Shown piece by piece: positions 33,770 through 38,167 of a DNA stretch of 44,238 bases (its first letter is position 1; each line of letters begins with the position of its first letter). The stretch comes from Deltaproteobacteria bacterium (GTDB lineage Bacteria; Desulfobacterota; Desulfuromonadia; Geobacterales; Pseudopelobacteraceae), in contig JAJYCS010000011.1 of assembly GCA_021778115.1 (NCBI GenBank), positions 1-44,238 of the forward strand. The letters are read 5' to 3'. The position numbers and the translations under genes were made by a program. The notes under the pieces were generated by a model. The model saw nothing but the letters and a program-made list of their open reading frames with translations. It did not search any database and was not told where the DNA came from.

Positions 33770-33807
33770 AAGCCCCGCAGGACAGAATCCTGTGGGGCTT
33801 TGTTTTG
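33770..33807 (+). terminator. Strong intrinsic terminator after tyrS
   Basis: AAGCCCCGCAGGA (33770-33782) pairs with TCCTGTGGGGCTT (33788-33800) around a CAGAA loop, followed by TGTTTTG. This is a clean terminator that closes the smc-to-tyrS segment. Confidence 0.92.
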
Positions 33808-33857
33808 TAACGGGGTGACAGAACAGCGGCTTGACCGCTGCTTCTGGCTGGTTATAC
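33805..33857. repeat. Weak attC-like palindrome abutting the tyrS terminator
   Basis: GAACAGCGG (33821-33829) pairs with CCGCTG-C-TTC (33835-33844) with one unpaired C, and the outer ends TTGTAAC (33805-33811) and GTTATAC (33851-33857) have AAC/GTT cores. Both agree partly with attC simple sites. At 53 bp it is short for attC and could be only a local hairpin. Confidence 0.3.
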
Positions 33858-33923
33858 CAGTCTTCTCAGGTTTAGCTACACTCCTTGGCTTCCCTTCGGG
33901 GAGAGATAGGGGAAGGTAAAAAC

Positions 33924-34157
33924 ATGTCAGATACATTTGTACCACCAGCGCCAAGCGATGATTATGTGTTGTTTCTCTTGCGAACCAAGGACGGTCATGA
34001 ATACAAACTCTACTTAAACGGCATGGGCGAAGGCTTCCCCGAAGGCACCTTAGTCATTAATCGTGCGGCGCCGTTGTATGGCTTTTTGTATTCTTTCTGG
34101 AAAAAAGGCTTGCCAGCATCTAAAATCCCCGCAAGTGAGCTGCAAGTTGTCCCCTGA
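33924..34157 (+). CDS. Small hypothetical protein (77 aa)
   Basis: I do not recognise this protein. The 77 residues have no signal peptide or membrane segment; a short aromatic stretch (YGFLYSFWKKG) lies near the C-terminus. GGAAGGT precedes the ATG by a workable distance; an in-frame start at 33885 lacks one. It lies between the tyrS terminator and the leftward cassette-like genes, and its last 35 codons overlap the leftward gene 34050-34388 on the other strand. It may be an antisense gene of a cassette or part of the original flank. Confidence 0.5.
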   Translation: MSDTFVPPAPSDDYVLFLLRTKDGHEYKLYLNGMGEGFPEGTLVINRAAPLYGFLYSFWKKGLPASKIPASELQVVP

Positions 34158-34388
34158 CGGTTTCGCGCATGGGGTTGCATTAAATTTTTCAGCTAGAGCG
34201 CGGGCAGAGGGGGTAAAGTAAGCAGTTTCGATGTTAGTTCTTGAATTTGTTTCCGTGAAAATAGCAATATAGCCGATATCCTTCAATGTCAGGCAATAAT
34301 AGAAATAAGCATCATGTATTTGCGTGTTCTTGGGAATTGCAGTTAGTATGTCTCCAAGCTCAACAGAATACCAGGTTTCTTCTGACAT
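34050..34388 (-). CDS. Hypothetical protein (112 aa)
   Basis: Unrecognised. AAGGAG lies seven bases before the ATG, which favours a real gene. The first 70 residues look like a compact alpha/beta protein (YSVELGDILTAIPKN, then a strand-rich part). Residues 78-112 are read from the strand opposite the 33924-34157 gene and look like read-through tail. It follows the 34411-35244 gene by only 22 bp on the same strand, so both probably share one transcript and, if the integron reading is right, one cassette. Confidence 0.55.
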   Translation of the reverse strand: MSEETWYSVELGDILTAIPKNTQIHDAYFYYCLTLKDIGYIAIFTETNSRTNIETAYFTPSARALAEKFNATPCAKPSGDNLQLTCGDFRCWQAFFPERIQKAIQRRRTIND

Positions 34389-34410
34389 GACAGGCTCCTT
34401 TTGAGTTTTA

Positions 34411-35244
34411 TTACTTCAAGAACTCTTCTTCTGAAATGTCGTATGTCTTGAAATTGCCGTAGGGTACTTTGTGCAATGTAATTGACATTCTGGACGCTCT
34501 TGTATGTTTGATGACGCCGTCGTCTGTTTCTTCGTCCCATGCTGATTCAGTTATGTCGAACGATTCGCTTTTGCCAAAGGAACGCTGAAAGTTAAATCGC
34601 TTCCTTTCATTATCCCAATCGTTGCCAAAGGCAACCTTGAGAACGTAGTCACCGGGCGGAATTTGATTTGCAGTAAATTTTCGGTCGTTGGGAATGAAGA
34701 AACTCCGTACAGTTTGATTTGGTTCACCGAGTCGGATTACTCTTACAACCGCGTCAGTGCTCGTTCCGTTGTCGATAGTGAGAGTTGATCTTCCACTTCG
34801 TATCCCTTTTCCGAAAGGAGAGGCCCCAAGAGGAAGTCTATTCGGATTTGTTGGTTCTCTTGCTGGTTCGGGTTGGCTGGTTGGTTCTGGCGGCGTTTCG
34901 ATGGTATACCTTGCGGTAGATGTGGGTTGTTCATGTGGGTCGCTTTTATATGAGGTTTTGTTTGAAATGAAAACCGATGACAAAATGATAAGAAGCGCAA
35001 GCGCTCCAACAGCTATTGCTACTTTGTAGTGCTCTCTGAATTTGTTACGGATTTTGCAGATTGTTATAGATTTTTCGGCTTTGGTCGGTTGAACAGAAAC
35101 GGTCGTGGAAGAACTATTGATAGCGGTCGGGACGTTCTCCTGAACGACAATGGTGTTCATGCACTTCTTGCACAGAATGTACTTCCCGATATGCTGCCGG
35201 TTGGAATGATAAACCTCTCCGCACTCGCAAGTTAGTTTTATCAT
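34411..35244 (-). CDS. Zinc-ribbon, single-membrane-helix hypothetical protein
   Basis: No known family is recognised. The N-terminus has a CxC...CxxC zinc-ribbon pattern (Cys6, Cys8, Cys25, Cys28). One membrane helix follows at about 75-93 (VAIAVGALALLIILSSVFI), then a Pro/Glu/Thr-rich linker of about 45 residues. The C-terminal domain of about 130 residues looks beta-rich and includes IPPGDYVLKVAFGNDW, similar in style to extracytoplasmic carrier or sensor folds. The ATG at 35244 is chosen over an upstream one at 35280 because of the MIKLTCECGE beginning. The DNA is AT-richer than the housekeeping genes around. Confidence 0.7.
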   Translation of the reverse strand: MIKLTCECGEVYHSNRQHIGKYILCKKCMNTIVVQENVPTAINSSSTTVSVQPTKAEKSITICKIRNKFREHYKVAIAVGALALLIILSSVFISNKTSYKSDPHEQPTSTARYTIETPPEPTSQPEPAREPTNPNRLPLGASPFGKGIRSGRSTLTIDNGTSTDAVVRVIRLGEPNQTVRSFFIPNDRKFTANQIPPGDYVLKVAFGNDWDNERKRFNFQRSFGKSESFDITESAWDEETDDGVIKHTRASRMSITLHKVPYGNFKTYDISEEEFLK

Positions 35245-35261
35245 GGTGTATTCCTTTGGCT

Positions 35262-35332
35262 GTATAACGTGGAAAGGCACACCGGCTCTGCGGGGGCTTT
35301 TTCCCGCTGACCGGTGCTGCCGTTTGTTGGGA
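35262..35332 (-). repeat. attC-like recombination site between two cassette-like genes
   Basis: Read on the minus strand this 71-bp element starts TCCCAAC and ends GTTATAC, each matching 6 of 7 positions of the integron attC consensus RYYYAAC and GTTRRRY. Between them GGCAGCACCGG pairs with CCGGTGTGCC (one unpaired base on one arm), and GCGGG pairs with CCCGC around a short loop. An extrahelical base, length of about 70 bp and a position after the 3' end of the upstream gene are all typical of attC. Confidence 0.55.
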
Positions 35333-35374: not shown

Positions 35375-36445
35375 TTAGATTCCATCTTTTTCCAAGATAA
35401 CAAATGTTTCAACCTTATCTTTAGGGATAGACAGGATGTTTCTGCTATTACTAACATGGCAAGAGGTGCAAGTTTTTACTTCCACAACATACTCTGTCCC
35501 AATTCGTGTTAATAATTTCCCGCTGTATTCATTTCGTCGTAATGGAAGTTGTGATGTAGAGCTATTCATTTTTAATGACTTTACATAGTCTTTATTCAAG
35601 GTCATAGACACATCTATGTTTCCCAGCTTGAAGTTAGTCATGATTGATTTTGATAATGTATTACCAGAAGGAGACTCCCAAATTAAAAGAAATGACAATG
35701 TCCCAATTATTGTGCCAGCTACAACCCCTGCTTTTGTTTTTTTGCCGAGTACAATTCCCGTGAATACTGTACAAGTTAAAGCTGTTATCATTAAGAATGT
35801 GTCAACATTATTTTTAAGTGGTAATCCTGTGACAGGCTTTCGAAATAAAAAGGAGGATATGTCATAGTCGAGGCTTACGACAGCACCAACAGCTATGAAA
35901 TACAGAACAAACAATCGGCAATATTTTTTCACCTCTTTCGGCAGCCATGGATACAATAAAAAAGACCCAGCTATGGAAATAGTGATAAAGATACCCACAT
36001 AAATTAGCCGATCTAGGGGATGTCTAAAGTAATAATAGTAATATATTGGCCATAGAACCCAAGGAATTGATAAATATAATCCGTTGATCACACTAAACTT
36101 ATCCAATTTCTTGCGGAGTTCGTCTCTAGCGGATTCGTTTGCGTGACCCAGAAGCCAATCAATAACGAATAAAGCGTAACTTGGTAAAAGCACAACTGTA
36201 CATGCAGCGACAGTTATTACAAAGCCAGATGCAAATACAAAAAGTACGGACCAAAAAATTATTGATACTTCTATGGTAGGCAGATAATGAATGCTTGAAA
36301 AATATTGGTAAAATATAACTCCACCTGCTGCAAGAGAGATGAAATATAATGTCGTAAGGTAGGCAGTTCCATCTTTAAATGAAAATTTCTCTGGCGCTGT
36401 GACACTCTGCGGTACTCTCTTACCAAGATATTTCGGTCGCCTCAT
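35375..36445 (-). CDS. Polytopic membrane protein with C-terminal CxxCH motif, unknown function
   Basis: I do not recognise this protein. The 356 residues have about seven or eight hydrophobic segments (residues about 30-255), e.g. GGVIFYQYF and VFTGIVLG. A soluble C-terminal domain of about 100 residues ends with CTSCH (326-330), a heme-c or metal-binding-like motif. The start is ATG at 36445 with an AGGAAGG upstream; a TTG at 36490 is less likely. Codon use is AT-rich and unlike the core genes, which suggests transfer. The attC-like site follows its stop by about 40 bp. Confidence 0.65.
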   Translation of the reverse strand: MRRPKYLGKRVPQSVTAPEKFSFKDGTAYLTTLYFISLAAGGVIFYQYFSSIHYLPTIEVSIIFWSVLFVFASGFVITVAACTVVLLPSYALFVIDWLLGHANESARDELRKKLDKFSVINGLYLSIPWVLWPIYYYYYFRHPLDRLIYVGIFITISIAGSFLLYPWLPKEVKKYCRLFVLYFIAVGAVVSLDYDISSFLFRKPVTGLPLKNNVDTFLMITALTCTVFTGIVLGKKTKAGVVAGTIIGTLSFLLIWESPSGNTLSKSIMTNFKLGNIDVSMTLNKDYVKSLKMNSSTSQLPLRRNEYSGKLLTRIGTEYVVEVKTCTSCHVSNSRNILSIPKDKVETFVILEKDGI

Positions 36446-36484
36446 TAATAATCTTCCTTCCTCTAAAATCTCACATTCGATTTT

Positions 36485-36491
36485 GACCAAC
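36485..36491 (-). other. Possible integron core site (attI-like simple site)
   Basis: On the minus strand GTTGGTC matches GTTRRRY at 6 of 7 positions, 40 bp before the ATG of the membrane-protein gene. Together with the site ending at 35262 it would bracket one gene cassette. A 7-mer is weak evidence by itself. Confidence 0.25.
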
Positions 36492-36513
36492 TCGTTATTG
36501 ATCGGTTACGGAA

Positions 36514-36653
36514 AGCATCTAATATTAGATGCTGGTATATATATGTAGATGCTTGCATCTATATGTATATGCCGAGGCAGCATCTACAGGTATATGCTTT
36601 GATCTGAATTTGTAGTTCTTGTGTCTGACTGATCGGCATCTACTACTATATGC
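36514..36653. repeat. 18-bp GCATCTA...TATATGC repeat family
   Basis: Four 18-bp units share GCATCTA at one end and a (T)ATATGC or TAGATGC at the other: 36515-36532 (inside the 20-bp palindrome AGCATCTAATATTAGATGCT), 36555-36572, 36580-36597 and 36636-36653. A further TAGATGC at 36546-36552 pairs with the start of the second unit. The third contains the stop codon of the small gene 36584-36976 and the fourth lies inside its coding sequence, encoding HIVVDA. Confidence 0.85.
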
Positions 36654-37087: not shown

Positions 37088-37104
37088 ATCTGGCACTGCC
37101 AGAT
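37088..37104. promoter_or_regulatory. 17-bp perfect inverted repeat before the integrase gene
   Basis: ATCTGGCA-C-TGCCAGAT is a perfect dyad of eight-base arms with a one-base centre, 16 bp upstream of the integrase start codon and touching its ribosome-binding site. It could be an operator for a dimeric repressor or an integrase site. It does not match the E. coli LexA box. Confidence 0.5.
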
Positions 37105-37120
37105 GGGGAGGAATGCCAGT

Positions 37121-38167
37121 ATGCTTGAAGTTCCAGAAACGGTTCGTGAACGGTATAAACAGTTCCTCAGCGCAAAAGGCATAGCTGCGGATTGCCATCA
37201 CAACTATCTGAAATGGCTACGGTATTTTCTTGATTTTGGCGCCAGGTATCACCTTCCTGCATCTAAAACAGAGCAGATCCGAAGGTTTAGTGAAAAGTTG
37301 CGGACAAAACAGCAATCCGAACTTCAGCGGCAACAGGCAATACATGCGGTTTTCCTGTTTTTTGAGCTCCAGAGCACAATTGAAGCGGCTGCAAACCTGC
37401 CTCCCCGACACGACAACACTGAAATACAGGCTTTTCACATCAGATCGTCGCAGCGAAGGTCACAGTTTTCTCTTGCCGGCTACGAAGAAACGTCAGACTC
37501 GCCGGAATGGGATGCAGTGCTTGAAACCATGGCAGGTGAGATCGACGCCATTCTTGCCCAGCTTTCCTATCCGTTTGATCTGGTGGTGAAGTTGCTGTTT
37601 GGTTGCGGGTTGCGGCAGTTTGAATGCCTGCAACTGCGGGTGCGGGATTTCAATTTTGACGCCGGTATCCTGACGGTGCATGGCAAAGGGAAGAAGGACC
37701 GTACGGTGCCGATTCCCGAGGCGATACGGCCTGAGCTGCAGGCACAGATCAAGGCGGTAGGTGAGCTGCACGACCGGGACCTGGCTGACGGTTACCATGG
37801 TGTGTTTCTGGATGATGCCGTGGAGAAGAAGTATCCCAAGGCCCCCAGGGAGTTTCTGCATCAGTGGTTTTTTCCGCAGAAGAGCTTGACGACGGTTCAG
37901 GAAACCGGAGAACGGCGGCGCTGGCATCTGCACGAGTCTGAACTTCAGGAGGCGCTCTACCCTGCCGTTCGTAAGGCGAAAATTCCCAAGCGGGTTACCT
38001 CGCACACCTTTCGTCACTCCTTTGCCACCCATCTGCTGCAGGCTGGGTATGATATCCGGGTGATCCAGAATCTTTTGGGGCATTCCAGTTTAAAAACCAC
38101 CATGATCTATACCCACTGCGTGCAGGTCAGGACGGTGAAGGAACCCAGGAGTCCGCTGGATATCTGA
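37121..38167 (+). CDS. intI: Integron-integrase-type tyrosine recombinase (IntI family)
   Basis: This 348-residue protein is a tyrosine recombinase with all catalytic residues: Arg165 (GCGLRQFECLQLR), Lys189 (HGKGKKDR), His295 and Arg298 (SHTFRHSFATHLL), His321 (LLGHSSLKTT) and Tyr330. Between Arg165 and His295 it has the extra segment that marks integron integrases: ELHDRDL, then KKYPKAP and HQWFFPQ (residues 215-253). The C-terminus ends RSPLDI, like the RSPLD end of IntI proteins. An N-terminal SAM-like domain binds DNA. ATG 37121 with GGGGAGGA upstream is preferred to ATG 37103. It is divergent from the leftward cassette-like genes. Confidence 0.9.
   Translation: MLEVPETVRERYKQFLSAKGIAADCHHNYLKWLRYFLDFGARYHLPASKTEQIRRFSEKLRTKQQSELQRQQAIHAVFLFFELQSTIEAAANLPPRHDNTEIQAFHIRSSQRRSQFSLAGYEETSDSPEWDAVLETMAGEIDAILAQLSYPFDLVVKLLFGCGLRQFECLQLRVRDFNFDAGILTVHGKGKKDRTVPIPEAIRPELQAQIKAVGELHDRDLADGYHGVFLDDAVEKKYPKAPREFLHQWFFPQKSLTTVQETGERRRWHLHESELQEALYPAVRKAKIPKRVTSHTFRHSFATHLLQAGYDIRVIQNLLGHSSLKTTMIYTHCVQVRTVKEPRSPLDI

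Follow-up and report, generated by a model that had tools for sequence, protein, structure and literature searches.

A spaced array of dyads beside the attI core of Geobacterales integrons covaries in sequence with a small integron-encoded protein

Introduction

The window analysed here, 44,238 nucleotides of contig JAJYCS010000011.1 of a Geobacterales genome, raises the question of what a series of 18-bp repeats, running from non-coding DNA into the 3' end of a 130-aa gene (S below), may be for, and which protein reads it. The original prediction had offered integrase-binding repeats of an attI site, a REP-like family, or copies of the last codons of the gene. Phased arrays of protein sites beside the core of a tyrosine recombinase are familiar from phage attachment sites, with lambda Int, Xis and IHF as the proteins involved. 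Among integrons, attI1 of class 1 carries two IntI-binding sites, DR1 and DR2, which are absent from most attI sites, and for the Vibrio cholerae integron it has been concluded that attI x attC recombination depends on an as yet unidentified host factor (PMC8191803, PMC8946536).

Results

Five 18-bp dyads are found at the window locus, with start-to-start distances of 56-25-20-20 (Table 1). Four of them had been described before and all four exist, including the one inside a perfect 20-bp palindrome, the one that holds the stop codon of S and the one that codes for HIVVDA; the true number is five, one dyad having been missed. With up to three mismatches allowed, GCATCTANNNNTATATGC matches at 14 places in the window, where chance predicts 1.9, and none of 100 shuffles gave as many. 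Elsewhere in the 2.29-Mb genome there is a single exact match to the unit, on another contig within a prolyl-tRNA-synthetase-like ORF; lying inside coding sequence, it was rejected as a true unit and is regarded as a chance match. Comparison of the locus with known RNA families gave matches that were all below threshold and at chance level.

Table 1. Features of the window locus (positions in the window; attC-like sites identified by inspection)
Feature	Position	Strand	Remark
attC-like site closing the cassette array	33805-33858	-	GTATAACCAGCC...CACCCCGTTAC
Second cassette	34050-35280	-	289-aa ORF (no family match) and 112-aa ORF
attC-like site closing the first cassette	35262-35328	-	attC family in relatives
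First cassette	35375-36490	-	371-aa ORF, no family match
attI core	36488-36508	-	TAACCGATCAATAACGAGTTG; cassettes begin at its GTT; conserved in relatives between the array and a differing downstream gene
18-bp dyad, core-proximal, perfect palindrome	36515-36532	-	20-bp palindrome with flanks, 36514-36533
18-bp dyad, overlooked in the original prediction	36535-36552	-	GCATCTACATATATATAC on the minus strand
18-bp dyad	36555-36572	-	
18-bp dyad with the stop codon (TAG) of S	36580-36597	-	
18-bp dyad within S	36636-36653	-	encodes HIVVDA
Gene S, 130 aa	36584-36976	-	C-terminal half DUF5710-like; proposed reader of the units, from covariation with them
IntI-type integrase gene, divergent from S	37103-38167	+	TIGR02249, E 1.4e-76

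The locus is a chromosomal integron of a Geobacterales genome, because it combines an IntI-type integrase, an attI site with a varying first cassette, and attC-like sites. The order is integrase, S, dyads, core, and then cassettes with attC-like ends, so that S lies between intI and attI and is directed towards the units and the cassettes. Relatives have the same gene order, and the gene after the core differs each time, as would be expected for an attI adjoining intI and followed by a first cassette specific to each relative. That the cassettes are bounded by attC sites is indicated by the two candidates in the window and by enrichment in relatives: sites of the type AACCA...CCCGTTR, a pattern picked after the matches of a generic hairpin count had been viewed, number 22 in 35 relatives, counted on the cassette strand, against 1-4 in controls. 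The generic hairpin count itself gave no separation (91 against 44-110 in controls). The attI site proposed originally is thus borne out by an IntI-type integrase, a conserved core, cassettes with attC-like sites, and an array at orthologous loci.

The integrase of the window scores 257.9 bits against TIGR02249, under the cut-off of 265, and the match begins at model position 105, which is expected because the canonical core-binding domain is missing. The IntI-specific insertion of these tyrosine recombinases was identified by visual inspection of the alignment. An IntI from Deltaproteobacteria lengthened by about 120 aa through fusion was noted in 2008 (Nemergut et al. 2008, PMC2426708). In full-length relatives we see an extra N-terminal SAM-like stretch, the canonical one, and then the catalytic domain; two SAM_4 stretches are present in a relative's IntI and one in that of the window. 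In the latter, about 95 aa are missing in frame near 37535 by comparison with relatives, and the catalytic domain is retained together with the additional SAM-like domain at the N-terminus. Since this gap removes the canonical core-binding domain, the window intI probably no longer works. Other internal deletions of intI, with both gene ends kept, were seen in five relatives (L046, L048, L054, L076, L080). In two further loci (L018, L059) the catalytic part is 96% identical to that of the window and the N-terminal domain only 49%, which would point to much faster divergence or exchange of the extra domain than of the remainder of IntI.

A four-unit array with 24-26/20/20 bp spacing and a fit score of at least 11.5 was found in 65 of 89 related loci; control cassette windows scored up to 7.8, and among the 24 loci with no good array some lie at contig ends. 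As this fit permitted a narrow range of spacings only, independent evidence for the spacing comes from a free-spacing search, which placed dyads at steps of 45-25-20-20 or similar in most loci. Two classes of loci differ by about one helical turn in how far the last unit is from the core, at 26-27 bp (13 loci) and 35-37 bp (28 loci); the window has 36 bp. The sequence of the unit varies from lineage to lineage (GCATCTA, GTTTATA, GTTTCCTAT, GCATCCTAT, CTATATA and others).

These comparisons also bear on the suggestion that the units have no role as binding sites and are instead a dispersed repeat of REP type, or duplicates of the last codons of S. The readings HIPVDA and HIHIDA, which had been given for two downstream units, are indeed correct on the minus strand and in frame, as such copying would produce. 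The search of the genome and of relatives that had been proposed as a check, however, finds the array at orthologous loci and none of the many dispersed genome copies that define a REP element. Relatives keep the spacing while the sequences differ, many loci have no unit within S and still keep the downstream array, and where a unit does overlap the gene the encoded residues shift with the site motif (HIVVDA, LLVLET, FIVIEI). A DNA site that overlaps the 3' end of S would therefore be the better reading than duplication of codons, and we regard a dispersed repeat or codon copies as very improbable.

Of 147 related genomes, 97 have gene S, frequently as multiple copies. When the phylum was sampled more widely, all genomes with S belonged to the same order; one contig labelled Nitrospirae (L036) carries the gene as well, and a search of plasmids and viral contigs found none. 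Sequence comparison and, weakly, a viral fold search relate the C-terminal half of the protein to DUF5710, the N-terminal half lying outside this domain. Window S reaches 20.6 bits against PF18974, under the gathering score of 26.5, so it does not qualify as a member by Pfam's own threshold; a match at E up to 0.1 was obtained for 52 of 53 relatives. Profile and fold searches of S against the PDB returned no match, and none to a known DNA-binding protein. To our knowledge no function has been assigned to DUF5710.

Some genomes (G054, G052, G032) have up to seven copies of S, with some platforms lacking a nearby integrase (loci of these genomes: L042, L045, L069, L072, L080, L084, L118, L048, L073). 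Three platforms without intI (L043, L045, L047) share a promoter-like stretch, TTAAATACGTTTATT...ATACTGTGATATG, upstream of S. In one locus (L104) S is a broken chimera whose front comes from one clade and whose rear comes from the other, and the array there goes with the rear part.

If a protein of the integron reads the units, their sequence should follow that protein across loci, and among 35 complete loci it is S that they follow. Motif distance correlates with S distance at r 0.63, and the partial correlation given both parts of IntI is 0.58 (p < 0.0005), against non-significant partial correlations of 0.02 with the IntI N-domain and 0.03 with its C part. The covariation is sharpest at residue 5 of S and base 3 of the half-site. 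Residue 5 is L in 40/40 intact loci with A at base 3, and is another residue in 36/36 intact loci with T; L5 if and only if A thus holds in 76 of 77 intact loci, the remaining L locus being without a recognisable array, and the sole contradicting locus is the broken chimeric gene L104. The rule holds across the two main clades of the S tree, L5 proteins of the second being paired with a hybrid motif, GCAT|CCTAT. In several genomes S genes that differ at residue 5 each agree with their own array; one of them (G052) has L, V and T paired with the motifs GCAT, GTTT and GTTC. On the S tree residue 5 and base 3 have switched together only about three times independently, and a phylogeny-corrected sign test cannot reach significance because of this small number.

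A prediction fixed before 40 further loci were fetched (L with A, non-L with T) proved correct for 16 of the 21 loci that were intact and could be scored. It failed in the other five, which without exception have Gly5, a residue new at this position, and a base 3 that is C or mixed, and the part of the rule by which non-L means T was rejected for Gly5. That A occurs if and only if residue 5 is L held in 21/21 intact hold-out loci, yet only one of these has L.

The units might instead be extra IntI sites, like DR1/DR2 of attI1 or like arm sites, read by the additional N-terminal domain. The integrases do have this SAM-like domain, attI1 sets a precedent with its two extra IntI sites (PMC8946536, PMC8191803), and physical linkage could partly account for the covariation of S with the motif. 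Linkage alone, however, is a poor explanation, because the codon of residue 5 is at that end of the gene which is remote from the units, and this residue predicts the base better than S columns nearer to them. The best column of the IntI N-domain predicts base 3 in 79% of cases, against 97% for S. Six platforms whose IntI has the extra domain and which have no S (L026, L027, L029, L035, L037, L038) have no array, their scores of 7.1-8.5 being near the control range; most platforms with IntI and without S keep a core-like motif, AACNNGTT. With no covariation, a weaker column and no array where S is missing, the extra domain, our first candidate, is no longer favoured as the reader, and the integrase-binding repeats of the original prediction, tracking neither part of IntI, appear quite unlikely to us. 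Taken together, these data suggest that S is the reader of the units.

A reader of the units may also act on expression rather than on recombination: bound by S, they would form an operator or roadblock, and read-through into the cassettes, or the level of S itself, would be tuned in this way. Such a role would fit the position of S upstream of the cassettes and in the same direction, and the overlap of the units with its 3' end. It would fit as well the 23 array loci in which no intI was detected close upstream, for a few of them because sequence is missing, and the genome with seven S copies (G054), in which just an IntI fragment was found at the threshold used. Judging by median dN/dS, S without a local intI is under purifying selection (0.12, against 0.10 with intI), the values being rough since dS is high, often near saturation, in many pairs. 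Against a role in expression, a recombination complex would account better for the steps of a helical turn between array and core, and no units stand out at the promoters of S and intI in the window. We consider regulation of expression unlikely, though less so than reading by IntI.

Discussion

From the array, its geometry, its place at attI and its covariation with S, we infer that S would bind the dyads, do so as dimers and have some role in recombination. We propose, and think it rather probable, that the integron itself encodes in S a DNA-binding protein, which coats the attI of its own platform by way of operator-like dyads. Made from the gene between intI and attI, it would bind each dyad, probably as one dimer, and the resulting phased array of S on double-helical DNA beside the crossover core would influence the shape of attI or bring in IntI, either in cis or in trans. 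Such a complex could control where cassettes enter, either helping or restricting insertion at its own attI, and different S proteins within one genome appear to read their respective arrays. More tentatively, and with somewhat less confidence, we may suggest that Geobacterales integrons have an accessory protein dedicated to binding attI, whose protein-DNA code is readable, and that coexisting capture platforms, some without an integrase, are mutually specific by means of it.

The locus resembles attI1 in having extra repeats that adjoin an integron crossover site, and differs from it in having 4-7 dyads that are set at fixed intervals and whose sequence follows another, small protein and not IntI. 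Unlike the arm and accessory sites of phages, the array belongs to an integron, and its likely binder is a DUF5710-like protein for which our searches detected no resemblance to Xis or IHF. The clade 15 fusion integrases share the Geobacter-type IntI that is longer by fusion; the passages of the paper that were consulted describe this fusion only, with no mention of the small gene or the array (PMC2426708). No integron-encoded accessory protein that binds attI was found in the literature searched, the coverage of which was incomplete.

If our proposal is true, S is a part of the integron that had previously gone unnoticed, and an integron equipped with both an attI-binding protein and an array of sites for it would offer a direct model for the host-factor question raised by Vibrio cholerae. 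It would also suggest how multiple integron platforms in one genome stay apart. The pairing of residue 5 with base 3 can be tested through single-residue changes. The Gly5 group of S proteins (L176, L177, L179, L180, L182, L183), which goes with dyads of GTCAC type, is possibly a further specificity class.
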